64,000 nucleotides of DNA. Origin: Porodaedalea pini (taxonomy: Eukaryota > Basidiomycota > Agaricomycetes > Hymenochaetales > Hymenochaetaceae). The notes under the pieces are model-generated. The model made no database searches. It saw nothing but the letters and a program-made list of their open reading frames with translations, and was not told the DNA's origin. The stretch is from the NCBI GenBank assembly GCA_002794775.1, contig NBAY01000005.1, positions 1,178,001 through 1,242,000 on the forward strand, written 5' to 3'. Below, piece after piece: positions 19,868 to 48,846 of this stretch (positions within the stretch are counted from its first letter, which is position 1; each line of letters starts with the position of its first letter). Both the position numbers and the translations under genes were made by a program.

Positions 19868-20060
19868 TCTTTTGTGTCTCAAGGACGTCTCTTGAAGATG
19901 ATGATGGCGGGCAAGTAGCTAAGGCCTGGATCGGCGTGCAAGACTGCCAATCACGTGATACAATAAAACGCGTGACAAAACGCGGTGTATCACTTTTTTG
20001 TTTGCGTCATTGTTGACCACCAAAGCTACACAAAGCAATGCCACTCCATCTCGAGAAAAC

Positions 20061-20456
20061 ATGAACGATGGTCCGCCAAAGATGTTTTCGCTAGCAGATC
20101 TAGGTGGCAGCGTCATTCTGTCCGCTACAGATGGTAATGGCAAGGTCGATAAACATAATAACCTCTTTCGTGTGCACAAATCACTTTTGGCTCGCCAGTC
20201 GAAGGTCTTCAACGACACCTTTACTCTTCCGAACTCGCACAGTGTGTTCGGCACTGAATCCGAGCCTGTTATCAAAGCGAAGTTGGATGAACTTTATGAA
20301 GGACTACCAGTCATAAACGTGTCAAACTCATCGTGTATCCGGTCATACACTGATACAGGCTCGAGAGGTGATTTCACACCTCTGAACGGAACACTTTGTG
20401 TCGTCATTCGAGTCATCTGGCCATATGTTTGGTTCAAGCTCATCGATTGCAAATAG
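20061..20456 (+). pseudogene. Truncated BTB/POZ-domain gene remnant
   Basis: From ATG 20061 the frame encodes the first half of a BTB domain: SVILSATDGNG, LFRVHKSLLARQSKVFNDTF, then LDELYEGLPVINVSNS. It then departs into unrelated residues and stops at 20456, without the second half of BTB or any C-terminal region. The same blocks occur in the MADS-BTB gene at 25.9 kb (LFRVHKSTLACQSEVF; NELYDGLPIVEMSDS), so the two are related. Truncation by deletion or drift is inferred; an undetected downstream exon is possible. Confidence 0.65.
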
Positions 20457-21028
20457 CCTCGAGGGTACAGAGGTGAGTCAACAACGTTAATCATATTCAT
20501 TTTTCGTTTCGGTGGGTCGAAAATAGGTATGAGCACTGAACACGCTCACTCAAATTTGTCTTTGACACTGTGCGAGACACTTCGACTACACGATAGGCAC
20601 ACTTGGTTTCGAAAGACTTCAGTGCCCCTTCTCAGGAGGATATCACATATCCATCAATCTTTGCGATGTTGGCCGCACGAGCGCCCTCCGAATTGTGAAG
20701 GATCTGCTGACCGCCGGACGTCGAGGTGTTCTATTTAGAATGATCACCGGGGCGGGAGGGCGCTCCAATCTTTGTGGAGGATCGGCGCGCCTTTGTCGGG
20801 CAATGCGTGTTGCGATTCAGGCTGAGAGACTCATAGGGCTGACCGAAATCACCGTGCGCTGACTGCTGACAGTTTCTTCGTCCGAGAACGCCGGCGATCG
20901 TACTGCGTCATTTTCAATATAAAATACAAGCAGCTTCAACATTTATCGTCAGTGTGTTTTCCTTTCGCACTACCTCCCAGCTTTCTTCCCCGCTCTCCAC
21001 CCCCGCCAAACCCCCTCTAGTATCAGCC
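20457..21028. other. Upstream region of the Rds1-like gene
   Basis: No gene is supported. A TATAAAA at 20918-20924, about 105 bp before ATG 21029 and followed by pyrimidine-rich sequence, is a credible core promoter for the secreted protein gene. Confidence 0.5.
20918..20924 (+). promoter_or_regulatory. TATA box of the Rds1-like gene
   Basis: TATAAAA lies 105 bp upstream of ATG 21029; the following leader is rich in C and T, as in strongly expressed basidiomycete genes. Inferred from motif and distance only. Confidence 0.55.
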
Positions 21029-21993
21029 ATGAAGTCCCTCACCCTCGTCGCTCCTTTTGTTTTCATTGCCATCTCCTCCCTCGTCGGTGCCACCCCCGTC
21101 GACATCAAAAAGCGCGACAACCCGACACAGACGCAGATCCTCCAGTACGCGCTCACGCTCGAGCACCTCGAGGACACCTTCTACTCCGGCGCCCTCGCTA
21201 AATACGACAATGCTGCCTTCGAGGCTGCCGGGTTCCCCTCCTGGGTACGCGGTCGAGTCGCGCAGATTGGCCAGCACGAGGCTGCGCACGTCAAATTCCT
21301 CACCAGCGCGCTTGGGAAAGATGCTGTCGCGGCGTGCGAGTACAGCTTGTAAGCATATTATTTTCCCCATGTTAGCCACTTAATTTCTCTTGCTGATTCA
21401 CGAGTCAGTCCGTACACTGACCCGCGCTCGTTCATTGCGCTGTCGCAGGTGCTCGAGGGCGTCGGCACGTCTGCCTACCTCGGCGCTGCCAAGTTCCTTC
21501 CGGACCCAACCGTCCTCACCGCAGCTGGAGCAATTCTTACCACTGAGGCGCGGCACAACGCGTGGCTGTCATCCGCTGCATTGAAGGGCAACCCATGGTC
21601 CGGCGACCTCGATACGCCACTCGACCAGAACCAGGTCTTCTCTCTCGCCGCGGCGTTCATCACGAGCTGCCCGTCGACCAACGCTGTGCTGCCGTTCAAG
21701 GCCTTCCCGCCGCTCACGGTCAACGAATCCGCTCCCGCGCCGGGCAAGAAGATCACCCTCGCATTCAAGGACACAGACACGGCGGGTGGCACGCGCCATC
21801 TCGCGCTCTTCACTGGCTTGAGTACCTTGTTCGCGGAGATCGACGCGAACAACCAGGCGACACTCCCTGAGGCTTGCAGGGCGTCGTGTACGCCGTCGTC
21901 AGCAGCGACGGCTCGACGGTCACTGACGATTCGACGATCGCTGGCCCCGCCATTCTGTCATTCCCGTTCCCCTCCAGCGCCTCCAACCCGTAG
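21029..21993 (+). CDS. Secreted Ferritin_2 / Rds1-like protein with one frameshift
   Basis: Exon 1 21029-21348, intron 21349-21408, exon 2 from 21409. MKSLTLVAPFVFIAISSLVGA is a signal peptide. A ferritin-like helical domain (PF13668, as in stress-response Rds1 proteins) follows: QILQYALTLEHLEDTFY, QIGQHEAAHVKFL, VLEGVGTSAYLGAA, LTTEARHNAWL. At about 21870 the frame breaks: the family block LPEGLQGVVYAVVSSDG is only restored if one G is added to the GAGG run; the conserved tail then ends at TAG 21991-21993. Unshifted, translation would run into unrelated residues to 22075. The nature of the lesion (real or sequencing) cannot be settled here. Metal-binding and stress roles are family-level only. 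Confidence 0.82.
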
Positions 21994-23308
21994 AGTGAGT
22001 ATTTGCAGGTTTGCGAACAATTCTATGGTATCTTTTTTCTGTGTCTGCCACTCGTGTTCAGTTGTTGTTTGTTAAAAAAATGGACCTTCCAGAAAATTAA
22101 AATGGCGTAGTCGGTAAGATATTTTAAATTTAATGCAGCGCTTTGCTATTTAGCATATCTCGATACGTATTTGGAATAAGTACTAGTCGTGACGGACCGA
22201 AAACAAAAAGAGGTGAAAAAGTTTGTCATGCGTCTGTTACGTCATTATCAAACCCGGGCATTCAATGTGTTCACTCTCTGAAGCTTGCAAAGAGCAATAT
22301 GAAAAGATGTTGCAGTCTCCTTCCTCTGTATTACAGACATTCACCGGTCCTTTAAACACTAACTTGATTTCCCTCCTCACATTTTTAACTAAGCACCTTT
22401 TCTAATTATTTCTGCGTAAGTACAAAGTGCTTATTGAGAAGTATCTGCATGAATTATTTAGAGCATTCAAGTGTGTTATAAAAATTAAAATTGCCTTCAC
22501 AAATTTTAGAGTGTTTTATGAGAAAATCAACTCCTTTGAACACCGCACATGATAATGTCACACTAGTGTTACCGTAATCTTGCAATGCACTTACGTCATC
22601 AGATCGGCTTATGAACCTGTCAAATTTGACCATTGTCTGCATTGTCTGACCTCCGTAAATTGCAAAACTCACTCTCCTGCTTCCAAACTTCGATAGTATA
22701 TAGATTAGATGGTATAAACGCTGTGTGAAATTTTTCACATGTTTCTGTTGAGTGATTCTTTCAGAATAAAATTTGTTAGCAAGAGATGCTGCAAGTTTTG
22801 ATTAAATTTTGACATTTCTGATTTTCTCTGGACTCAACCATTTCACTGATTCTGCTCAAAATTTGCACCCATATAGCCAGACACTACATACACATTCAGG
22901 TATTTTTTCAGAATTGCATTAAAAATTTTGAGGGAGAAATTGCTAGGTGTTCAAAGGAACAGTGGTGTTTAAAGGACACGTGAATGTCTGTAGGTACATT
23001 TCTGCACCAGTTTTCAATCCAAGAATAGGGCATATCGGGAAGGGATTTTGGTTTCAAATTCAGAAGAACAGTAGCAGCTTTTTTGAACAGCCTCCTGTTT
23101 GCAAAGTTGATTCTCCCAGTTTTCGTAATAAATACATAATGCAAGAGTGTAGTGGGGAAGATCTCGATTCACAATATCGCCTTGGTTGAACACATTAATA
23201 TTCTGCTAGGGTCTGGTTCTACATATATGCGGGTTGTAAATGGTACAATTGAGTTCCCAGTATTGCGGAGTACAATGAATCTAAGTGATTCTCGGAGCTC
23301 CTGTACAA
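21994..23308. other. AT-rich intergenic island
   Basis: Base composition turns markedly AT-rich after the Rds1-like gene. The stretch contains an element bounded by inverted repeats (22332-22992, listed separately). Short open frames show no known domain. Confidence 0.6.
22332..22992. mobile_element. Non-autonomous TIR element (MITE-like), about 660 bp
   Basis: The 28-nt arm at 22332-22359 (starting TACAGACATTCAC) matches the reverse complement of 22965-22992 at 26 of 28 positions. Inside, TCCTTTGAACACC (22532-22544) has an exact inverted partner at 22946-22958, so subterminal motifs of the type CCTTTRAACAC occur in both orientations, as in DNA transposons. No transposase frame is present and no target-site duplication was found next to the arms, so superfamily is unassigned. 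Confidence 0.6.
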
Positions 23309-24138
23309 TCAATCAAAAGAGGCCAAAAAGGAGGTCAAAACAACAAGAGCCTTAGTGTCGGAGTATGTGTTACTGATTTTTGAGACTGAGATTTCTAAAA
23401 CATGAGTTTGGTGGAGTATATCGTCTGTTTTAGAGGATACGGTAGAAAGGCCTTGCTCTATGCGTACGTTGGATGCCAGCTGAAAGCATGCATGAGACTT
23501 GAGTGTGCATATATCTCTATAAGAACGAGCTAACGGCTTACCTTGAACCCTTCTAGGGCTTCATTGAGTTGTTCCTGAAGAACACGCAGTTGATCCTTTT
23601 CTTTTGCAGTGTTGAAGAAACGGACCAGTGGACTCTTTCCCGGAACCTTGCAGGTTCTTCCAGCGATGTCATCAAGTTTTCTTAGGACAACATACAATTC
23701 ATTTAGATCTCATAGAATAGGAAGAGAAAGATGAACTGTACCTATCAAGAGCATTCACTGCGACGAGTAAATGGAGCGGTACACTGAAGGGATCAGGAAT
23801 CGTATCCACAAGGAGATTGAAGAGGCCTTCTGCTTTGTTACACAGTCGTTCAGCATCCTCCTTGTTTCCCTTCATCATCTGAAGAAGCTGTTACATCATT
23901 TGATACTCAGGATGAGACGGTTCGGACTTACTTCCATAAGTTCTATGATGCGACATAAACCTCCGACAGTGCTCTTCAGAGGGGGGAAAACGTCGGAGCT
24001 TTCCTTCAGGAACTTCATCGTTTCCTTGAGCGGGGCGGGGATAGCATGGAGAATTCTCTTCCGCCTCTTGAACCACCTACGTGGTGGAGAGGACTCGACC
24101 GAAGTCGAGCGTTCTGACACTCTGCCAGAGCGGAGCAT
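23309..24138 (-). CDS. Short helical-domain protein resembling N-terminal domains of fungal NLR/MLKL-like proteins, 217 aa
   Basis: Exons 24138-23932, 23878-23742, 23680-23542, 23479-23309 (654 nt). The core FLKESSDVFPPLKSTVGGLC matches the alpha-helical bundle found at the N-terminus of many Agaricomycete STAND/NACHT or kinase proteins, followed by helices with MMKGNKEDAERLCNKAEGLF and LRVLQEQLNEALEGFKLASN. No NACHT, kinase or repeat domain follows; the frame stops at 23309, next to the AT-rich TIR region. It could be a free-standing helical protein or a truncated receptor. A relation to HeLo/MLKL-type cell-death bundles is inference from the motif, not proof. Confidence 0.6.
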
Positions 24139-25237
24139 GGGAGTGAATGAGCTATGGCCTGAAGACGTTTGTGTTATTGTCCTTAAATAGCAGAGGACGA
24201 CTTTTGAATCTCCGATGATAGGGGTGACGGTCAATGTTGATTGTAAAAGCTATTGTACACATGAAGGCATTTAGCGACATTCCATATGGTACCATGCCAC
24301 AGCCTCGTACCTTTCTGAACTATCTTGAGGTATGAAAGATAGATGAAAGCTTCTGGAATCCCTGGTAAAGGATTGGATGCCCAGGCCTCGAGCTCATTGC
24401 AATGCACACGCAGTTCAGATTCTGCGGCCAGAAATAGCCATGCTTCTGTCAAAGAGAGACACAATACGCTGTGAGCTGTGCAAGGCAGTGAACAAGGTGG
24501 CTATGTCCTTATTCCTGTGCAAAGGAACTAATGCTTCGCCCCTATGAGATCGCAAGGTGTGTGAAAGCATTCAAGTTGCAGATGAAGCGGAGCTCGAAAT
24601 ACTGCAACGAGTTCACTGCCACTCAGACATTCGCATCGGGACTTGCTCCGACCTAGAGTGCCAAAGTTGGCTGTGCTATCTCTGAACTGGAAGGGACAGC
24701 GTTTCTAGACTCGTCTCTAATAGGGAGTTCGAAAGAGCCTGACATTCCGGTTTGCCGTTGGGGAGAGTGTTTCCTTTTCCCTAGATGCGTTGAGAAAGCG
24801 CAGCATTCACATCAACAGCCTCCTTAAGTGACGAGAAACTCTCCGTGTAGATCATCCAGTGTACCAGTATCAATCGAGATCGTACTCTCAATACTGGTCA
24901 GTTGAACATGCTGCGGAATAATTCTGCCAGAAATGACCTTCGGATACGAAGTAAGCCCAGGACAGAGATTCTGTAAGAAGACTGGCGTGAGAACGTTGTT
25001 TACTCATGCCTATTAATATATATTGCTGCGACGGTACAATCCGGGCCGGACTCGGGAAAGTGAGCTGGGGCGCGTGACATGACGCGTCGAGATCACGCTT
25101 TTCCACGATCACACATCGGGGACGCGCCAAAATAGCATGCGGATTGCCGCCCATGCCAGTACTACTGTTGTGGCCATATCGCGCGCACTCACTGCGACCA
25201 TCACCTTGCCTCCAACAAGGACATCTTCGAGTACGAC
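24139..25237. other. Intergenic, no firm gene
   Basis: A minus-strand frame at 24464-24231 (containing CNELEAWASNPLPGIPEAF) looks protein-like and could be an upstream exon of the helical-domain gene or another gene, but no splice path was found. 24465-25237 is the upstream region of the MADS-BTB gene; nothing else is supported. Confidence 0.45.
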
Positions 25238-26787
25238 ATGCAAGCATCTGACGATGAAGATGTGTCCGATATTGGCAGTGAGGCCAGCAGCGAAGAAGAG
25301 ACGACTACCGCCAATGCTGCTCCGTCTCCTATCGAGTTCATCCATGACAAGAGCAGACGGCGTTCAACCTTCAAAAGACGTAAAGCAGGTGAGCGATATA
25401 GCAGAATCTCTCCAAATTCATCTGGCTAATCATCTGTTTAGGGCTACTGAGGAGGGCGTATGAGCTGTCAACGCTAACTGGCACGCAAGTGCTTGTCCTT
25501 GCTGTCTCTGAGAATGGGCTTGTGTACACATTCACCACAGCTAGACTCCAGTCTCTTGTCACTCAACCCGAGGGAAAGAATCTGATACAGTCTTGCCTCA
25601 ATACCACCCATGGTGCTCCGCCTCCACCTCCCGTATCATCCGGCAACGCTCTACAGTCCCAGCCTGTTGTTAGTGCTACTAGTACGCATTCTGGCCCGAT
25701 TGAACCACCCAGTTCCCCTGGAGCCCAGACTAGTACGAAGCTCGCAGAGAACTCTTTTCTCATAACCAAAAAATACGTCCGCAGCGAGCGATTTTGGCTC
25801 CCGGACGGCAACATTATACTCTCAACTAAGTTATTCGAGCCACCGAATGCCACGGATCCATCGAGCTTCATTTTATTCCGCGTCCACAAATCAACGCTTG
25901 CATGCCAGTCCGAGGTGTTTGAGCACATGTTCGGTGCTGCTTCCTTCCCGGATACTGAAGGCGCCGTGAATGAGTTGTACGATGGCTTACCTATTGTCGA
26001 AATGTCAGACTCCAGGGAACAATTGTGCAGCTTACTCGAAGTTCTTTATGGCGGAACCTCACTCCCATACAAACATTTTGACCCTAGAGCCGGAGAGACG
26101 GCTCGCCTGGTTCTGGAGATCGCAGCAAAATATGAGATGAACAGCATCCGTCAGCGCGTCGTCGCACACATAGAGGATTACTGGCCGACTAGTCTCGCCG
26201 CGTGGGACATCTTCGAAGCACGCTTGATGCTGGTTGAAGATGATGACAGCCGGGACGATGAGATGGACTGTTACGCACAAGAGCCCGCGGCTGCAATCGC
26301 TCTCGCACGGCGCTTCGACATCCGCTTCATCCTCCCTGCAGCATTTTACGACCTTTCACGAATACCTGCGAGCTGCGATCTCACGGTGCGCCAAGCACGC
26401 GCGGAAGACGCACCTGATGACGAGGTCGACAGCGATCCTTGGAATGTGCGTGCTGCTCGCTGGTCGGAGCTGAGCGTTGCAGACTACCACCGCGTGTGCG
26501 TTGCGCGCGAGCGGCTGCGTGCGAAGGCAGTGCATACCGTCGGACGGGCCCTTCATTCACGCCCTGCTAAAGGCTGCTACAATGTGACGCGTTGCCGCGA
26601 CCAGAGCATAAAAGCGCAGGCGGAGACGCGCGAGAGGTGTTACTCGTCGTATGACGTGCTGAAGGTGTTGAAGGAGGCGGCAGAGAGGATCGCCGTATGC
26701 CCGCCGTGTCGTGAGGAGATTAGGAACGAGCTGCAGATGTGCAGACGGGAGATCTGGAGGGACCTCCCCATGACTTTTTTGCTCTGA
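25238..26787 (+). CDS. MADS-box (Mcm1/SRF type) fused to BTB/POZ domain, 498 aa
   Basis: Exons 25238-25388 and 25442-26787 (1497 nt; 53-bp intron). Residues 1-30 are acidic. Residues 32-104 form an SRF-type MADS domain: IEFIHDKSRRRSTFKRRKAG, then LLRRAYELSTLTGTQVLVL, VSENGLVYTFTT, LVTQPEGKNLIQSCLN. A Pro/Ser linker (105-165) leads to a BTB/POZ domain (about 166-280: LPDGNIIL, FILFRVHKSTLACQSEVFEHMFG, ELYDGLPIVEMSDS, LLEVLYGG) and a C-terminal region with CPPCREEI typical of Agaricomycete BTB proteins. Both domains share one uninterrupted exon, and no in-frame ATG occurs between the MADS part and HMFG inside BTB, so BTB has no start codon of its own. The basic N-arm usual before IEFI (RRKIK in Mcm1 relatives) is replaced by APSP. 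Likely a nuclear DNA-binding protein with a BTB oligomerisation module (inference). Confidence 0.88.
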
Positions 26788-26991
26788 TTGCTTGCCCATC
26801 TTTATTAAAAGATTATAATGAGATCCGACAACTTTTGATGACGAGCCTGTAGCTATTATTTACTCGGGTTCAGGCCGTTGTACACATATGTGCTTGTAAT
26901 TGTCTCGCTCATTACTCAGAGCCGCATGCTATTACTGCACATTCATGACCTTCCTCTGGTCCATTACCGGTGCTAATGATTCCAATCACGA

Positions 26992-28114
26992 TTATCGTGC
27001 TCCCGACTGCGTAATATCTTCCAGATAGCGACCTATATCCTTCTTCCATTGCCGCTGGCGCCAAGCGTCCTCGTGCAGCGCGCCATCGATTTCGACCAGC
27101 CTTGCCCGGTCCTCTTCGAGATTGCCAGTTTTCAAACATCGCGCGTTGAATAGTGCATGACCCATTGAGGGCGGAACAACCTCGTCGCGCGAGCTTATTA
27201 GCACTAGCATGTTCTGTGCGAGGCGGAAGAGGGACTTTGTTTCTCCGGGGGAATGTGTTAGGCCAGGGCCTGCATCGATATCATTAACGACAGAGGTGTC
27301 GCGTGAGGATACGGAAGCGCGCATCGCAGCCAGAGCATCCCATTTGTCCCAAGCGAGTGGCGCGAGGTGGCGGTAGGGCAGCCAACGCTGTGGATAGAGT
27401 GCGTGTACCATACCGGGTATTGACGCGAACGGGTTCTCGAGTATGAGTCCTCGGAGCGCGTCTCTCATTTCTTTCTCTTCCTTTGACAGCTCTTCTTGGA
27501 TCTCTGAATCAAGGGAGGCCAGTAGACACACTGCAACCGCACCACCAAGCGAATGTCCGTACAGCACGAGCGGCGTGCTAGGCCAGCGACGTGCGGCGTA
27601 GTGCAGGGCGGCGTGGTAGTCTGCGAGAAGGCCCGCTTCGGTTGGCGTACGGTTGGACGAGGACCAATACGAACGCGGAGCTGGAGCGAGGATCACTGGA
27701 TTTGTGTGTGCGGTGGAAGATAGGAGAGACGTGAAAACAGGTATGCGGTGGAGAGGGTTTCCAGCGTTTCCTGTGAAATGAGGCCCGTGTTGTTAACAAC
27801 TGCAATTACATCGAGAAGAGCAGGGTATTATCGTGGCAGACCTTGCAAGTATATCACCACACAATCGGGCTTTTCTGTGATCTTCTTGCTCATGATGAGG
27901 GCGGAGAGCTTTACTCTGTCTGAGGACGTTATCCGCGTCTTTTCCAAAGAGTAATCCTTATGCAGCTTGGATAGTTCCGGGACGTCAGAGAGCTCTTCTT
28001 GACGAGTTCCTGGAGGTATATATCCTGAATCGTTGACTCAGAGTTGATCAATGAGATGAGTTAACTTTAAAAGTACAAACCCATGTAAATGATCTTCCTC
28101 TGAAAGAGTACCAT
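26992..28114 (-). CDS. Alpha/beta hydrolase (ABHD12/13-like serine hydrolase), 331 aa
   Basis: Exons 28114-28081, 28024-27842 and 27770-26992 (996 nt). Exon 1 gives MVLFQRKIIYMG; then YIPPGTRQEELSDV. The oxyanion strand appears as VVIYLQGNAGN, the nucleophile elbow as LYGHSLGG (Ser about residue 158), the acid near LVLISSRDEVVP and the catalytic His in DGALHED, which is the full Ser-Asp-His set. This layout fits the ABHD12/13/BEM46 group of membrane-associated hydrolases; substrate unknown. The gene is divergent from the p23 gene with 578 bp between start codons. Confidence 0.87.
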
Positions 28115-28692
28115 CGTCAAACACTAGATCACAAAGATCGTGAGCTTATAGCAATGAGACCAATTTGAGACAATCTCGACCTTATACGTCCACAGTGCCA
28201 TTGGCAGTCCAAATAGCACAGAAAAGAACAGAGAAACAGACGGAGGTTCCGACGTTGGCGTAAACGAGAATATACTGCTTGATGCACATAGATTTAAAGC
28301 CAAATAAGATTGGATGGAGTTCAGTTCATCTCTTAGAGGTATTGCTCTCTTCAGAACTATAACTCTACTAGAGACTCCGAGTCGTGGTGCATTTCGACTG
28401 GAAAAGTAGCGAGTTTCTCAGTCAGGATCGGTTGAAGCATAATAGATGCTGCTACATGCATCGGGATATAGCCCAGTTCGAGGGCAGCCGCATGACAGTG
28501 GACTTTTGTCAGTTCGTCCAAAGCTGAGGGTTGGTAGATGAAAGTAAGAGTTAGCTGGAAATTTCAGGAAAATGGTGGAATTTTAGCGCTCCGGCCCTAA
28601 AGCAAGGACGCGTGCACATGCGAGGCGCTGCTCTGCGGAGTTCTCTGACATTCTCTGTCTTTCATCTGAACCATCATCACCCTACACGTACA
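28115..28692. other. Shared upstream region of hydrolase and p23 genes
   Basis: Divergent starts at 28114 (minus) and 28693 (plus) bound 578 bp with no supported gene, so it probably holds both promoters. Short frames here lack conserved features. Confidence 0.5.
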
Positions 28693-29639
28693 ATGTCGAC
28701 ACATCCTGAAGTTATATGGGCACAGCGCAGTTCTGATGTGGAGGAGGAGAAGGTACAGTAACAACTTCGTTTGAGTGTCCAAGATGAATTATGACTGATT
28801 CTATTCGAAAATTTCTCCCGTCACATTTGGGCGCTACTTAGAACATCGTGTACTTGACCGTCAATCTCACGGAGATCAACGAATCGACTCTCAAGCTTGA
28901 TATCCAGCCTAAGGAGATTACTTTTGAGGCGAAAGCTGGAAGGTCCGTTCATGATAGCAATGTCTTTTGACGGCATATAAACTAGTCTCTATTCACAGAC
29001 CCGAAGAAAAAGAGTACAAATTCAGCTTCAAGCTCTTTGGCGAGATTGACCCCGAAGTGTGTTTCTTCGTTGCCTTTTAACATAACAGAATATTTCTAAT
29101 TGTCGATGCTATTCAGAAAACGAGCAAACGCCTCACAACACGCTCGCTTGTGCTCGTGCTACGCAAAAAGGAGCAGAAGCTTGAGTTCTGGCCGCGCCTG
29201 ACTGAGGAAAAGAAGCTTCCGTTCGTCAAGACGGACTTCAGCAAGTGGGTCGACGAGGACGAGCAGGACGAATCAGCAGCCATCGATGACGAAGGCTTCG
29301 ATGCTCCGGGCGGAATGGGTGGAATGCCAGGAATGGGTGGAATGGGAGGGATGCCAGGAATGGGTGGGCCAGGAGGCATGCCTGATATGAGCTCCTTGAT
29401 GGGCGGAATGGGAGGCATGGGTGAAGGTGGAATGGATTTCGAGAAGGTGCGTGCTGAGCAGGTTTGATTGCCATCGTAAGCTCCAGCTGACTTTGCATAT
29501 GCAGATGATGGCCGACATGAAGGCGAACCAGGGTGGTGCCGGTCCGGAGGGCGTCGACCCCGCCGACGAGGACTCAGACGACGATGAGGGCCCGCCGCCG
29601 CTCGAAGACGCCGAGCCCGTTGCTTCGAGCAGCTCGTAG
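28693..29639 (+). CDS. sba1: Hsp90 co-chaperone p23 (Sba1/Wos2), 227 aa
   Basis: Exons 28693-28752, 28842-28942, 28999-29056, 29117-29446 and 29505-29639 (684 nt). The CS domain fills the first 120 residues: PEVIWAQRSSDVEEEKNIVY, INESTLKLDI, EYKFSFKLFGEID, LVLVLRKKE, and the p23 signature FWPRLTEEK. It is followed by VDEDEQDE, then a Gly/Met-rich repeat region (GGMPGMGG units) and an acidic tail. p23 binds the ATP-bound, closed form of Hsp90 in the cytosol and slows its ATPase; that is family knowledge. Splice sites and phases are all consistent. Confidence 0.95.
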
Positions 29640-30238
29640 ACTCCAACCAAAAGGATCTGTAGCTATCTGGGTCGCCTGGGAAGACGGTATGGACGGCATT
29701 TTTGTCATCATGTTTCTTTGAAGTTGTGTGCTTTCTTTCTTGTCATGAAGCGACGAATGTAGACGAACTTGTGTTGTTTGAATAACCTCAGCTGCGATAT
29801 ACTCTTGGATATCGCACATCATTTAAATTTTCACCTCGACTGCGCTCACACCTTGAGAAATTTATTCCTTCACAAATCTGGAACGATGAGTTTTCAGGTT
29901 ACGTCACGCGTGCTGCGACGCGCTGCGTCTATTCCTTACGCGTCCCGCGCGCGCCTTAGTTAAGGCTGCCGCCTGCCCTCCCGCTACTATCTTTCTCTTC
30001 TCTACTACCACCATCCATCCCCTCTGCCGAGGTCGCTCTGCTACGAGCTCATATCCCCAGTCCGACTTTTTTGACCGCGTATTTGTCTCTCACGGTCTTT
30101 CAGTCACCATCCAGTCCTCTACGCCCGCTGTTGCTGCGTCCTTCTTGTTTGCCACCATCAGTTCACCTTAAAGGGTGCCGCTGCGCTTTGTCATTTACTT
30201 CGCCTATTTTCCTGATCACCAATTACCGGTTTCCTTCC
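29640..30238. other. Region between p23 and Argonaute
   Basis: Contains the p23 3' UTR and the upstream region of Argonaute. CT-rich stretches near 29970-30150 look like a fungal promoter/leader. No gene is supported. Confidence 0.5.
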
Positions 30239-33200
30239 ATGACTGTCTTCACCGTCACCCCCCGCCCGACGAGCGGTACCAGAGGCATGCCATTTCTTGC
30301 AGCTACGAACTGTTTCAAGGTCTCAATTGTAAGGAGGCTAGCATTCCATCACTACCACGGTGAGTGCACTCAGCATAGTGTTATATCCAGTAAGTTGACG
30401 ACGACCTGCCACCGCAACTCCACCCACCCACCTTCGTCAATAATCAGTCAGTTAGTGGCATACACTCCGGTCATGCTAGCGTAACTTATAGCTGACCTCC
30501 CAGTAACCATGCAGCTATAACAGTCATTGCGAATGATCGAGAGATCAAGAACGCAGCCCGCCGCAGAGAGATCATCAAGAAGCTCTATGTTCATGACCGT
30601 CCGAACGTATTCCAGCCCGGGCAAGTCGCCTATGACGGAAAGGCGGGGCTCTATACGTCAAAAGACCTTGGTCCTGACAGAGATGTAAACTATATCGACT
30701 ATACTCTAAGAACGCTACCTCCTGACGTATTCACTGCAGTTGCACTTCGAACTATGCGAATCGCATATTTCTCCCCATACAGGTCCAAACAATGGTAACA
30801 TTCGAGTGATGCTCCAGAAAGTTGGCTATATTTCGGACAAGTGAACTTGGAGATACTTTCTCTCACCGCTTTAAGGCTGAAGTTAATATTCTCCCAGTGA
30901 CTTCGGTGGTCTTCTTACTCAAGAGCGTCAGAGTGACATAGCTTTGACCGCTCAACAGATTCTTAACCTGTTACTTCACAATGCAACTCCGGAGTAATCG
31001 ACTTCATGCCTTACTGGTAATAGAGTCACTGACGGGACATCGTACTTATTTACAGTGGGTTCAGGAGAGTGATGACAAGAAACACAATGTTTTCGATGGC
31101 GTTGGCCGACAAAATAGCTCTGGGACAGGGATTAGAATTTATGCGAGGCTGTTTTGCGTAAGATTTTATGTGTTGGCCAATGCAGCTTATTCATATGCAT
31201 CACAATTCTCTACGATAGGAGCATTCGTCTAGCACGCGAGCATTTGCTACTCAATGTGGATGTCTCCTCCGCGATAATGTGAAGTCCTTCCTTCAGTTGT
31301 ATTGCTGGTGCTAATTTCAACAACGCCAGGTACGAGAGCAGCGAGCTCAAAAACGTTGCAATGCACCTCATGGGTATTTCAAACTACCGTCAGCTCGGAA
31401 ACCCAGCCGAGCTACAGAGGCTTTTAACACTTTTGCGAAAAGTGCGCGTACGACAAATCACCGCGGGCAAAGTCGGTCGCATTAGGTCTGTCAGGGAGAT
31501 CATTTCGAAAGCGGGATACCACCCATTTCATCTCCAAGATGGAACTCCGACAACTGTCCAGGTGAATGGACATCATTATTCCGCACGTTCTACTTCTGAC
31601 GAGCCCTCACATCAAGGCGTACTTTCTTCAGGTTCACAATTACCGCTTGAAGCATCCGGATCTCCCAGGAATCCTCGTGATCAAGAAGGACAGGTACAAC
31701 GGGAATGCCGACAAGACGGATGTGATACCCTTCGAGCTGCTCGAGGTCGTCGAGGGACAGTTTTATCGACGTAGGCTGGATGCGGCTCTTCATCAAGAAG
31801 TACAACGGCTCACCACTATTTATCCCGAAAATCGCAAAAGTACTATTTTGAGACACCTCCAGGCATGCTTTCTTGTCTCAGTCCATACAGTTGTGATCAA
31901 ATAACCTGTCTATACAGGCTTTCAGTCCTAGGGCTCTGATGTCTGCCGGGCTGCACGTTGATCGAAACCTTGTCTCAGTTCATGGAAGGATTCTTCCGCC
32001 GCCCGTTGTAGAACTCGCTTGTGCAGAAAGAATCGTGAGCAGTTATTCCATCGATGAGCTCAAGCTTCAATCACTTACAAACTTATGCGTTAGATTCCCA
32101 AAAACGGAGCTTGGAAACTGGCAGCAAGATCTCCCAGTCGATTTTATAAGCCCTGCACCATAAATATCTGGGCAATACTATGTTACGAACGTAGCGCTAC
32201 TACGGATTTCTGTCAGAAGATCTTGAAAAGCCTCCTCTCGTGCTTAGGTCGCTTCGGTGTGAAAAATGGCTGAGCATAAATTTACTTCCGGAGTTGATAT
32301 CGCATATATCAGGTATCCAAACGGCCCGACTGAAAAATGGCTTGTCACAAGCTATTATACATCATGAAAACTCTCATGGTAATAAACTTCAGGTTTGTCA
32401 ATGCTCTCCGCATCACTCAGTATAGATTGGTTGACACTGTAGGCTAATTTACAGCATCTGAAGTCTGTGGTCGCAGATGTTACGAGTGTCACAAAGAAGG
32501 ATTTTCAGGATAGATACTTTTTGCTCCTTGTTATTCTCCCGGGAGGCGGTAGAAGTATTGTTTACGAGCAAATCAAAAGACTATGTGATACAACGGCTGG
32601 TCCAGGGTTGATCACGCAATGCTTGGTGTGTTTGATTGTTCTCTGATATGCTTCGTATACTTCGGTGCTCAGAGTATTATTGGGAATATAGGGATGGGAT
32701 AAACTGAAGCTACTGTCCGACAAGCACCCGTCAAAGCTCGATGAATATTTATCTAACCTTGTTTTGAAGTACTTCTTCTCCCGTCGCTTTTGACTTTGGC
32801 TTCCTGATGTCCCCCCCCCCCTTTTATCCCAGAATCAACGTGAAGCTCGGCGGCATCAACTTTGTTCCTGTGGGAAATGGCTTAGAATGGATCCATAATG
32901 CTGGTTGTGAAGAGGCAACCATGGTCATCGGTGAGTTGAACATATCATTATGATTGACTTTCTCAAGTACCGACTTTTATATCCTTTGTTCAGGCCTAGA
33001 TGTCTCACATCCAGGCCCTGGAATAATGAGGCCTTCAACGGCAGGGATGGTCTACTCTGTTGATTCCCACGCAAGCCGATACTTTGCGCTGTGTACGCAT
33101 CAACCTCCGAGAATAGAGACCATTCAAAACCTGCAGGAAATGATCCGTGTGAGTCGACACGCTCATCAGAAGATGGCAGAACTCTAACGCGCACTATTCT

Positions 33201-42777: not shown

Positions 42778-45700
42778 CTAAAGGTAAAAGGAGGGTGGTA
42801 AATCAGATAAAAGAGGCATGCTGTCGGGTGGCCGACGAAAAGAAAAATATGCAAATTTTAAAAGTAAAAGAAAGTTATTTGGGCGAAACCAATCAGAAAA
42901 TGTAATGGGAAGAGATCGTTGATGAAAAAGGCCATTTCGAACGAGCGCGAAGAAAGGGCAACAATTGAGCATATGATGGACATCATGTTTGACACATAGT
43001 GGATCCGGACAACGGGGTTCAAGGTTTCGGTTATGCAGATCAAGCGCGTTCAGCATTATACTGGCAGCGCGGGAAAGAACTGAGCGATGTATCTTTTTCC
43101 TTGGGGAAAGCTTCAGGAACGGATGGAGGGATCGCGTTGGGTAGAGGATGAATGAGGACGGCTCAAGGATGGAGCGATGTCCACAGAGGTTCATAATCCC
43201 GGCTTTCCAGTCTCGAAGGAGGTCAAGCTGTACTTGCGCATTCAGGTTGGGTAGGGAGTTCAGGATGACCTCGCGATCAGGTTTGGTAGCAGCATCTTTT
43301 GCGAGTTTATCGGCTTTAGAATTGCCCAGCACTCCCCTATGAGAGGGGAGCCACTGTATAGTGATGTGTGAGGCGACATGATGAAGGGCAAGAAAGATTC
43401 CACAAAGACGGCGGAAGGTAATTATGAATTCCGCGTGTTGAGTATCGTTGGAAAAGATGAGTTCGACACAATTAAGAGAATCCATAACGATATGGATGTG
43501 AATCGGTGTGAAGCATTTCGCCAAAAGGAGGGAGATACGATGCATGGCTGCGATGAGCGCTTCCTGCTCCTCGAACAAGATGTTCGATCGAGAGTGCACT
43601 GCTGAAGAAAAGACAGCAAGTTCCTTGTGATTGTGCATAATGATGAACCCATGGCCGCCGTTATAGGATCCGTCAGTGTTGGGGATGATGGAGCCATCTG
43701 TGAAAATAAAGTACTGGTAGGGGGGAGGATGTAAAAAGAAGGAATTGAACTTGCAAATAGCGTGGTTGCGATGAGCTGCTGGAGGGATAGGTGACATAAC
43801 TAGGCGAGAATGGATTTGTGTGAAGTTAGGGAAAGAGACTGATTTCGGAATGTTGACACCGGGAAGGAGGGTTGAAATTAAATATTGTCTAGGAACGGGG
43901 TCATGTTTTGAATGAGCGAAATATGAAAGTAGGAAGCGTTGGGAAAGGGATCAAATGAAAAGATTCAGAGGTGGACATGATAAAAACGATTCAGCGATTT
44001 CAGGATTGATGCTGCGCTGGAATATAGAATGAAAGAACTGGTTTTGGGTTGGTTGAAGAATGGAAGAAATGTATGGGGACTCAGGAAAAAGGACGGCGCC
44101 ATAAATAGCAACTGACCAAATCAAACCAAAGTATAAAGATCTGGTGTATTGAAAGTGTGCGCCATTTGAATGGTGAAAAAGGAAGGATTGTTGGTGTATG
44201 GTGGATAGGGCTTTGTTAGCATGGGCTTGAAAGTGAAGTTTGGGGGAAAGGTCATAAGAAAAAATTACGCCTAGCCAGGTAAGTTGGCGTGAAGGGAGAA
44301 TAATGCGGCTATCCGGAAGAGATAGCACCGCGTTGGATGAAGCTGGAGAATCTTGTAGAAAGGATCGAAAGGTAATAGACGCAGCTTGGCGATGCGGAAG
44401 AATATGGAGAAGTTCGATGGCATCGGGGTCAATGGAAAGGCCAAGGACTTGGAATTGGAAAGATAGGAATTGAAATTGGTTTCGAAGGCGAGTTAAATTA
44501 GTTGAAAGGCTGAGGGAGCGTGAATAGAGGAGATGGTCATCCATATATGCCAGTAAAGGGCGGTTTGGACCAAAATGAGTGTTATAGGCCAAAATGGCAT
44601 CTGCTGCAGCGAAAACTGAAATAAGGGGAGATAGGGGAGACCCCTGGGGGACACCTCTATTCGGCTTGATGAAAGGGGCGGAAAAGAAATTGTTGAAATG
44701 AAAGGAAATGGGTCTGTCTCTAAGCCAAACCGATAGAACGTGAATGAGATTGGGGTGAACATTAGAAAGGATGAGTTTGTTAAGGAGGCGATTATGAGAA
44801 ATATTGTCAAAAAATCCTTGAATGTCAACGGTAAGAATAGAAGTAATGAGATAGCGGTGGCGTTGCAGATGAGCTGAGACTTTCTCGCTGCTGTTCATAA
44901 TGAATGGCTGGGTTAAAATAGTAGAAAGTAATTCATAACAAGCGGTGAGAGAAGAACGATGTTTTCGACACCCATGTTGGGTGTCGGGCAGAAGGTTGTG
45001 TGATTCGAAAAAGGGTTGTAAGAAATTAAAAAGAACACGTTCGAAAAGTTTGCCGATAGTGTCAACCAATGTAATGGGGTGGTAAGCCCTGGGAACTGAA
45101 AAGTCGGAACGTTTGGGTTTAGGAATAAAGGTAATGAGCGAAGTTTTAAAAGATAAAGGAAAGTGGCCAAATTTAAGGCACAGAGAAAAAAGGTCGACGA
45201 AAAATTGACCGCGATGCTCGATGAGTAACACGAGGTGTTTGTATGAAATGTGGTTATTGCCAGGACTGGTTTCCTGGTCAATGCCTCGGAGCGCATCATG
45301 GATGTCGCTCATAGTAAGGGGCCTGAAGTCGCAGAGGGAGGGGAGCGGGATGACCTCTGGAGAAGACGTTAAGGAAGGGAAAAACGTCTTGTGAAAAAGG
45401 GACGCTTTATCGTCTTCAGTGAGTGTGAATGAACTGTTGGCCATGCGCAGCGCTCCTATGGGAGAGCAACGGCGAGCGGTACCCAGATACTGATTACGCC
45501 AGACCAATCTAGCATCAGATTGCTGGAGACGTGCACCGAAAAAGGCATTTTTGGCGTGGGTAAGTTCAATGTCGAGGCGTTTCCGTGAATCAGGTTGAGG
45601 GTTACAACAGTGTGCGCGATATAGTTTCGAGCATTCTTCCGACCACCAAGTGTTGGGGCCGAAATACAAGCGCGGTTTTCGTTTGGTAAGGAATGATGAG

Positions 45701-46605
45701 GCAAAATTGGAAAAGGAGTCTTGAAACGAAAAGAGGAGGTCGTCCAGCGCCTTAGGAGTATTTATGTTTTTTAGAGAGAAAGAAAAGGAATTGGACTCGC
45801 AGAATTCTGCGACGAATGTGGGTAAGTCCTGCGAACGGATTGAACGAAGGGCAGGTTGTGTCAGGGAGGTGATTACATTCACATCGAATGAAAAGGAAAG
45901 TGGACGATGATCAGACGAAATGTCAAGAGGGTAGCTCGAAATCGAAGTATGGTTCAGAAGGTGAGGGGAAAAGTCTTTGGAAGCGATGACAAGGTCGATG
46001 ATTGTTTTAGAATTGTTAGAGTGATTGAAATAGGTGTGTTGGTTAGAAGGGTTACAAACGACTAAGTCGCTGTCATTGAGCCAGTCAACGAAAGCTCTAG
46101 ATCGCGAGAAGTCAGCCGATTGGGCGGGAAATGACCAAAGTTCAGAATGCCAGTTAAAGTCTCCGGTGAAGATATTAGAGGGAAATCGAAGTGAAGGGAA
46201 AGGGTTTTCAAACTCATGTAGGCTTGGGGAATTATAAACATTCCAAAGTAAAAGAGGGGATAGGTCACCCCGAGAAATGGATATGATGCAGATATTTGGG
46301 GAAGGAGGGTCGGAGTCATATAAAGAAATGCGATGAATGATGCGTGGGTGTACCAGGGTACAACAATGCAGTTTTGCTGAAGGAGAAGGCCTGAAAATGG
46401 TATAAGGGGCTGAATTGCGAATCTGAAAAATGTGTGAGCCAGAAGCAGAAGTTTTAGAAGGGATGATTGAAGAAATGGTCGGGATTTCCTGAAAACAGAT
46501 AATATCAGGGGTAAATTGTGTGGACAAAAAGGAGCGTAAAAGAAAGTCGAAAGTAGGTTCAGAATTGTGAATATTGAGTGAAAAGATGGAAATTGTATCA
46601 GTCAT
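42778..46605 (-). pseudogene. LINE ORF2: endonuclease, reverse transcriptase, RNase H (one in-frame stop)
   Basis: The frame runs from ATG 46605 to 42778 (about 1275 codons), broken once by TGA at 43953-43951. Endonuclease motifs: SLNIHNSEPTFDFLL, PDIICFQE, FTGDFNWHS, SSDHRPLSF. Reverse transcriptase motifs: ILTVDIQGFFDNISHNRL, NRGVPQGSPLSPLISVF and the active site YMDD (more often YADD in LINEs). RNase H lies after the stop: FIFTDGS, FEEQEALIAAM, VMDSLNCVEL, SHRGVLGNSKADKLAKDA, then a CPDPLCVKHDVHHMLNCCP knuckle-like block. Reading TGA as the likely ancestral CGA (Arg) makes the polyprotein continuous. ORF2 starts 5 bases after the ORF1 stop (46611). Confidence 0.92.
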
Positions 46606-46610
46606 GAAGG

Positions 46611-48846
46611 TTAGTAGGGGGACCGGTAGTTGCAGCGAGCTGGACACTCTGATGACCTGGCACTGTGATTACCCTGGCAATTGATGCAGTGGGCAAAATG
46701 ATCGCATTGAAGGTTGTTAGATGCTGTGCATGGAGCGCATTTAGCGACATGCACCGCAGTCTGGTGGGGCTCAGAGCAGATTGCGCAGCGGGCAACTGAG
46801 CAACATTTCAAAGCGGGATGTCCCAGGCGATGGCAGTTGTCGCACTGGTTAATGGTTGGTCGAGCTTTCATCTCCTCGAGACGGCGGATGACTCCGAAGA
46901 CGGGTACTGATCTGTTGTTATGTAAGAAAAAGTGATCAAAACAGAGGCGGGAGTCGTCTTTGAGGACCACCGAAACGTTGCAGAAGTCTCATTGATTGAG
47001 CCTTTCGATGGATGACATGAACCAAGGCGGGAACATGAATTCCTGGCCTTTGAATTGTGGGAGAGAAGAGATCTCCTCAATCAGATCTTTTTCAGAGTAG
47101 ATGAGGTTGGTGTCCTTGTCGTAGACTGGGACTCCGGGGATAACCATTTTAAACTGGGGCGACGGCATGAATGCCTTCGCTCCAGAGATGTTGATTATGC
47201 GGTTGAGTTGAGTAACAAGCGAGCTATACTGGGCATCAAAGTCAGTGCGGATGTTAGTGAACGCGACCAACAAGTTGCTGTTGGAAGTATATTCCACATT
47301 TAGGATGACGAGATGTTTGAAAAGCGGATTGCCCTTAAGGCCAGCGCGCACTGCGTTTTTAACAGAAAGAGGGGACGGCTGAACGGCAAGGTCGCCCGGG
47401 AGTGAAAAGAAGATGCGGCGGACGTTGCGAACTCGAGTGTTGACCAATCCGTTAGATCGATTAATGGGGACTGTTGAGACTTCTCCTTGGGGGTTTTGCT
47501 CCGTGATTCGAACTACCTTGGTAGGGGTAGCCTTGGGTTTTCTCTGGGCGGCTTTAGCATATGAGACAGTGGTGAAACCGTCCTGGTCAGTACCAACGGC
47601 CTCGACCAGCGGATAATAAATTTTTGTTTGGGATCCGCGAGGAGCGTTATGTTCTGAGTGGGCATAACCATCAGGTGCAATGATAGTACCTTCGGTCGTC
47701 ATACGGTAACCAGAACCCGGGACGCAGGTTTTAGTGATAGCAGATGCATATTCTGTTTTTTCCGTTTTTTGGGGTTGGGACGCGCTGTTTGGTGATGGGG
47801 GCCGGGGGGGGAAACCTAGGATCATGAACGAAACGAACTCCGATAGGGTCCGGTAGAATTTTATTCTGTTTATTGGAGTTAGTGTTAATGGAAACGGGTT
47901 GGCGAACTGAAGAAGCTGGGACGTCCGAAAGCTGTTTTTCAATTTTGTTAGTTTTTTCCGAAATAGACGTTACAACTGCTGATAAGTGCTGAATGGACCT
48001 GGACATAGCGTGCATAGTGTCAGTGATTTCCTGATCGCGGATGGTCTGGCTGTTGACATAAATATTTTCAAAAACGTGTTGAAAGGAAGGTGAATGAATG
48101 CGGTAAGTGGAATGAAAAGCTTCCAGACCCTCGTTAGCCGAGTTCTGGAGGGTAGTCTTGTCGTCCAAAGTATTGGATTTATTGATCCAAGATACCAGAT
48201 TGGAGCCGATGTTAGCGAGAATAGACCCGGCACGAACGGGATCCTCATGCCAGGGCTTATCCAAAGACCATGTGGGTTGGGAAATGAGTGTGTTAATCTT
48301 ATCGACGGTTTCCTTAGTAAGATCTGCGAAGGCAAGGTTGACCTTTTCGGAGATGGCCGGATCCTCCTGCACATCGATATCGTCCATAGCGTTGTCGACC
48401 TGAGGGGCTTGACTGGGGTATTCGTCCGGGATGTACAGATCGTCGTCCATAGCATCGTTGTCCACTCGGGCAGGGGGCGGGAGTGACCTATGTTCCTCCT
48501 CGGAATTCGAACGTTTAAGTGTGTTCTGCGACTCGATATCAGGGGTAGGAGGGAGGTCTCCCTGTTTGCGAAGTTTGGCGGCATGTTCATCTGCCTCGAC
48601 ATCGGGTGACCAATTGGCACGATTCGCTTGTACCTGAATGCAAACGGCGTCGTTGTGGTTGTAGGTCTTGTCGCGACCACAAACGGCACATAGTTTGGCG
48701 GCCCCACTAACACACTGGCGACTGTGAAAGGGGAGATCCTGTTTACACTCCCCACACTTGGTGGGGTCCTTGGGATTAGCAAGGGAACGGGAAGACTTGG
48801 TCTTGTGTAGAGATGCTTTTGCCCTGGTCAACATACTGTTGTCCAT
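46611..48846 (-). pseudogene. LINE ORF1 (gag-like, zinc knuckles), frameshift and stop
   Basis: Starts MDNSMLTRAKASLHKTKSSR at 48846. An N-terminal Cys/His cluster (CGECKQDLPFHSRQC, CAVCGRDKTYNHND) is followed by a polar, partly coiled region, an RRM-like segment (RRIFFSLPGDLAVQ ... KHLVILNVEYTSN) and C-terminal CCHC knuckles (CDNCHRLGHPALKC, CAICSEPHQTAVHVAKC, CINCQGNHSARSSEC). A run of eight C residues (47804-47811 on the plus strand as G8) shifts the frame: with seven the product reads on through PRPPSPNSAS. A TGA at 46991-46989 then interrupts ERLNQ/DFCNVSVV; CGA would restore it. Nucleic-acid binding is the family role. Confidence 0.85.

Follow-up and report, generated by a model that had tools for sequence, protein, structure and literature searches.

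A MADS box and a BTB domain in one gene

We analyzed a 64,000-nucleotide stretch of the Porodaedalea pini genome (contig NBAY01000005.1 of assembly GCA_002794775.1, positions 1,178,001 to 1,242,000 of the forward strand; hereafter the window), which carries at 25238 to 26787, on the plus strand, a gene joining a MADS box to a BTB domain. Its two exons form a single open frame encoding a protein of 498 residues. Exon 1 (25238 to 25388) encodes an acidic N terminus and the first half of the MADS box, that is, residues 1 to 50 and the first base of codon 51. A 53-base intron (25389 to 25441; GTGAGC...TTTAG) interrupts the MADS box at residue 51 and is the sole GT..AG pair within the range tried. 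Exon 2 (25442 to 26787) encodes the second half of the MADS box, a linker, the complete BTB half, and the stop codon. Upstream, the frame is closed by a stop at 25133, and no ATG occurs between this stop and the start of the gene. A codon score trained on a small set, six open reading frames (ORFs) of the window, was best in frame 0 for 18 of 18 sliding windows (residues 1 to 475), the linker included.

The original prediction, made from the DNA letters alone, described both domains as lying in one continuous exon. This was not exact, as the intron splits the MADS box; its central point holds, since the second MADS half, the linker, and all of the BTB half share exon 2. It had also stated that the BTB domain has no start of its own, and this agrees with the frame: the in-frame ATG codons fall at residues 1, 213, 238, and later. 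A separate BTB start within exon 2 is thus ruled out, as there is no such codon between residues 1 and 213 and the related proteins are co-linear. Searching the 498-residue product with the two Pfam models it had named placed both above their cut-offs: SRF-TF (PF00319, the SRF/Mcm1-type MADS family) with 57.9 bits (cut-off 26; E 6.8e-16) at residues 34 to 81 (25337 to 25533, broken by the intron), and BTB (PF00651) with 25.4 bits (cut-off 20.5; E 1.7e-5) at residues 196 to 294 (25876 to 26172). The union of the two domains in one protein is further corroborated in three other genera, whose annotated proteins are co-linear with it (the Phellopilus one over part of the BTB domain only), and by a Coniferiporia protein that matches back to this locus. 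We conclude that 25238 to 26787 is confirmed to encode a real two-domain MADS and BTB protein.

Conservation of the fusion in Hymenochaetaceae

The related proteins come from searches of 5.8 billion annotated proteins, with 8000 candidates scored per search; we considered the best 120 of 422, 17 of 17, and the best 120 of 689 matches of three such searches. Among the best 120 of 422, two proteins cover about 80% of the window protein: one of 445 residues from Coniferiporia weirii (P0001; 56% identity over 84% of the query) and one of 392 residues from Phellinidium pouzarii (P0002; 57% identity over 79%). Both domains exceed their Pfam cut-offs in each, and both proteins align with the window protein starting at residue 1 and continuing across the MADS box, a variable linker, and the BTB half, of which the aligned part is 66% identical to P0001 and likewise to P0002. 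A profile search added a protein of 267 residues from Phellopilus nigrolimitatus (P0135), which comprises the MADS box and the first part of the BTB domain, the latter scoring 15.2 bits, under the cut-off of 20.5. Its annotated end falls about where the match is interrupted, probably by an intron, in most BTB relatives in the P. pini genome. All three relatives have annotated C termini shorter than the window frame (445, 392, and 267 residues against 498). When P0001 was searched back against the P. pini genome, the window locus ranked first, with one 62% stretch over P0001 residues 53 to 431 and no stops.

The search of other proteomes for proteins carrying both domains, which the original prediction had proposed, therefore yielded relatives in Coniferiporia, Phellinidium, and Phellopilus (in the last with a partial BTB domain), all three species belonging to Hymenochaetaceae. 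These comparisons show that the fusion gene is conserved, in four genera. No second full copy was found on searching the window protein against the P. pini genome (53.3 Mb, 201 contigs), and no Sanghuangporus fusion occurs among the matches listed, which are annotated proteins only. A table in PMC10410303 places Phellinidium pouzarii, Phellopilus nigrolimitatus, and Coniferiporia sulphurascens, a congener of C. weirii, on gymnosperms.

Two groups of candidates were rejected as further fusions. A Phellopilus nigrolimitatus protein of 711 residues (P0121) has two BTB stretches and no MADS box; it reads as a pair of BTB proteins joined head to tail under a single annotation and could be a merged gene model. 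Four Tulasnella proteins (P0003-P0006) have no BTB domain and two MADS stretches per chain, which is another unusual MADS architecture.

Origin of the two halves

Three MADS matches were found in the P. pini genome, namely, a normal MCM1 gene (C12), a gene on C14, and the fusion gene itself. Among the proteins compared, Sanghuangporus has the MCM1 nearest to the P. pini one (71% over 345 residues), followed by Coniferiporia (60%). The intron of the P. pini MCM1 lies at the same codon and phase as that of the fusion, after the first base of a glycine codon (KA|G), and this shared position suggests that the MADS half arose by direct copying of a gene. This half is an extra Mcm1 paralogue, a duplicated Mcm1-type MADS box. 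The C14 gene (L001) was considered as its source and set aside, since the Mcm1-type core and the shared intron favor MCM1; the C14 DNA was read and not aligned. The C14 match (about 211-244 kb) has a group of BTB matches some 6 kb away, possibly by chance.

BTB matches are numerous in the P. pini genome, at least 34, and by its sequence the BTB half is placed within a large Agaricomycete BTB set. As the original prediction had suggested, we built a phylogeny of each half, and the four fusions fall together in both. In the BTB tree (24 rows, with four of seven P. pini loci), they form one clade with support of 100/100, next to BTB-only proteins of Hymenochaetales; only 7 of the 21 inner branches have good support in this tree, where P0135 occupies 26% of the columns. 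In the MADS tree (19 chosen rows, 82 columns, bootstrap not settled), they lie on one side of a branch with 97/98. The simplest reading of these trees is one fusion event within Hymenochaetaceae. Six of the seven P. pini BTB loci have an interruption in the match past residue 254 or so, probably marking an intron; the window gene lacks it.

An altered DNA side and a kept dimer core

The MADS columns were compared with a redundant set of 181 near relatives of Mcm1 gathered by similarity, consisting of 180 of 198 database proteins plus the P. pini MCM1; 15 BTB-only proteins below the score cut were excluded, and three fusions were set apart. The basic arm G-R-R-K-I-K, present per column in 177 to 179 of the 181, occurs in none of the four fusions, in keeping with the earlier proposal that the basic N-terminal arm had been lost. 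Residues 25 to 31 of the window protein (25310 to 25330) read ANAAPSP where MCM1 has AGRRKIK. At helix place 22, serine in 181/181 of the others is replaced by lysine in 4/4 fusions; at place 23, lysine in 180/181 is replaced by R, V, R, and R. Places 22 and 23, and the identity of the CC/GG-reading lysine, follow what we take to be MEF2 numbering.

By contrast with the DNA side, the core is largely kept. Across core columns 32 to 58, the four fusions retain 24, 21, 22, and 24 of the 27 residues of C. weirii MCM1, and their identity on the DNA side (17, 14, 10, and 10 of 32) is below core identity in each (Fisher p 0.004, 0.016, 0.0002, and 0.00001, values that are descriptive since the rows are related). 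Human SRF keeps 5/7 arm columns, 18/25 of the helix half, and 24/27 of the core. According to the review PMC10178880, the MADS N-terminal extension reads the A/T minor groove, the CC/GG borders are set by a single helix lysine in each monomer, and MEF2B K23R loses the border C and G.

The BTB half and its possible CUL3 contacts

A VIA-align comparison of the modeled Coniferiporia protein against 918 chains gave matches to Mcm1 and, as separate matches, to BTB proteins including SPOP and NPR1. Its residues from 191 to about 438-445 were aligned with SPOP, KBTBD2, and KLHL11 at middling Z; mapped through the alignment, a BTB fold followed by putative BACK-like helices would span approximately 25774 to 26520 of the window. 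At the presumed alpha3-beta4 (Cul3-contact) loop, 4/4 fusions have V-N-E (register set by eye), which would fit, suggestively only, the phiX(D/E) motif described in a passage of PMC6484134. With the same register by eye, V/I/L/M/F/Y/W stands at this place in 0/15 BTB-only copies and A in 3/15 (P0132 could not be placed), and L in one of seven P. pini loci. The P. pini genome also has a CUL3-like gene on C9: its N-terminal exon matches Cullin-3 chains only (14 of 14 listed), and a later exon is ambiguous among cullins. The roles first suggested for the protein, namely, dimerization, contact with CUL3 or a corepressor, and altered DNA binding, fit the modeled fold matches and this gene.

C-terminal cysteines of the window protein (CYNVTRC ... 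CPPC, at 26574 to 26709) resemble those of BTB-only relatives (Rickenella P0007, Phellopilus P0121) and are candidate zinc ligands; in Coniferiporia and Phellinidium, the fusions as annotated stop short of this region.

Proposed function and alternatives

BTB proteins often pick a partner through a second domain, the BTB part bringing CUL3 or a corepressor. What we have here is a conserved fusion of a duplicated Mcm1-type MADS box with an Agaricomycete BTB protein, in a genome where a normal MCM1 is also present. Since the Mcm1 copy has its dimer core kept and its DNA side changed, its likeliest partner would be Mcm1 or the fusion itself. We therefore favor, tentatively, a BTB regulator that would dock through the MADS dimer core on Mcm1 or on itself and tune Mcm1 activity. 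The MADS dimerization core would be the aiming part, pairing with itself or with Mcm1 via the retained helix-sheet core. A mixed dimer might read Mcm1 sites poorly or differently, because the minor-groove arm and the usual guanine-reading lysine are absent. The BTB half would then multimerize and recruit CUL3 or a corepressor, and the net effect would be a tuning, most likely a lowering, of Mcm1 activity. A more specific form of this proposal, in which the duplicated copy became a dedicated inhibitor or degradation adaptor of Mcm1, with the MADS core, no longer reading DNA in the usual manner, as the target-recognition part of a BTB-CUL3 type regulator, we consider doubtful. PMC13075204 reports a case in plants in which a MADS factor is degraded in trans through a BTB protein, CmBT1.

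Several observations weigh against docking through the dimer core. The helix of the fusions keeps its strong basic character (net +6 to +9; P. pini MCM1 +7), which makes it quite possible that they bind DNA with a new preference. Extension columns 59 to 78 are eroded in P. pouzarii (7/20), and the sequence does not allow a clean division between DNA side and core because helix I also takes part in dimerization. Regarding the BTB half, neither the window protein nor P0001 gave a Pfam BACK match at E up to 0.1, the helices are read as BACK-like from middling fold matches of a model, a PDB sequence search with P0001 at E up to 1 gave MADS chains only (18/18), and the reserve about V-N-E is due to its register having been set by eye.

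In one alternative, the protein is an independent sequence-specific factor with a new DNA preference. Its MADS homodimer would bind through a re-tooled basic helix, and its BTB domain would serve, like that of BTB-zinc-finger factors, for multimerization and as a corepressor module. The helix reads F-K-[R/V]-R-K in each of the four fusions, where after F the others have S (181/181) and then K (180/181); this would be a shared new motif rather than random decay, and the helix has 8 or 10 K/R residues in the fusions and 8 in MCM1. However, the N-terminal half of the helix has diverged among the fusions (12-15/25 identical per pair), which is odd for a fixed new specificity, and the arm is gone, its replacement having no basic stretch and a net charge of 0 or -1. 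We regard this alternative as possible, albeit unlikely.

It is improbable that the protein is one more Agaricomycete BTB protein whose MADS box is a passive leftover serving only dimerization or nuclear location. The abundance of BTB genes in the genome, the 66% identity of the BTB half to both P0001 and P0002, and the eroding P. pouzarii extension would agree with it, whereas a dimer core that keeps 21-24/27 MCM1 columns in all four fusions goes beyond what a passive leftover needs. That the gene is an artefact, be it a wrong gene model, a misassembly, or a decaying gene, is very improbable: the C termini of P0001, P0002, and P0135 are indeed annotated shorter, that of P0135 ending near the probable intron break of the P. 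pini BTB relatives, but in other species single annotated proteins contain both halves, and P0001 matches the locus as one stop-free stretch. Docking through the MADS dimer core on Mcm1 or on itself remains our preferred, tentative reading.

Neighborhood of the fusion gene

A Pfam scan of 20 of the 55 stop-to-stop ORFs of at least 150 residues in the window revealed nothing among the neighbors that bears on the fusion, and Rfam gave no match at 20000 to 32000. Farther downstream, a long interspersed nuclear element (LINE)-like element lies at 42781 to 46668 on the minus strand, with an ORF at 43954 to 46668 carrying endonuclease-reverse transcriptase and RVT_1 matches, then an RNase H ORF at 42781 to 43950 (Pfam).

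Comparison with known systems

Fungi have few MADS genes, and Mcm1 stands high in yeast mating and cell-type control. A conserved Mcm1 paralogue joined to a BTB domain offers a direct test of a dimeric factor turned regulator of its own parent, and it connects the many BTB proteins of mushrooms with an established master regulator. Gene control may here go through gripping other proteins instead of the usual reading of DNA.

Like Mcm1/SRF-type factors such as fungal MCM1, the fusion has a MADS box with an STLTGTQVL core and an extension, and it shares the intron position of the P. pini MCM1. Unlike MCM1, it lacks the basic arm and has K/R or K/V at helix places 22/23; in place of the Q/P/G-rich tail of the P. 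pini MCM1, it has the BTB half. As in the CUL3 adaptors SPOP, KLHL, and KBTBD, a BTB fold followed by helices is seen in the model of the Coniferiporia fusion, and the chain also carries a distinct domain that is a candidate for binding a partner; that domain is a MADS box rather than MATH or Kelch, Pfam BACK was not found, and CUL3 binding is only putative. BTB-zinc-finger repressors likewise combine a BTB domain with a domain of DNA-binding type in a single chain; the fusion differs in having a MADS box for the zinc fingers and in the reversed order, with the BTB domain C-terminal. With Agaricomycete BTB-only proteins (Rickenella P0007, Phellopilus P0121, and the P. pini locus on C28), it shares the BTB family and a similar C-terminal cysteine pattern; unlike them, it has a MADS box and lacks the break near residue 254 seen at 6/7 P. 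pini loci. No description of a MADS-BTB protein was found among the titles and abstract openings listed from the open-licence PMC literature searched. Phellinidium P0002 already bears both Pfam domains in databases, so that the architecture is visible there, undiscussed. Overall, the MADS-BTB protein is a new variant built from two known kinds.
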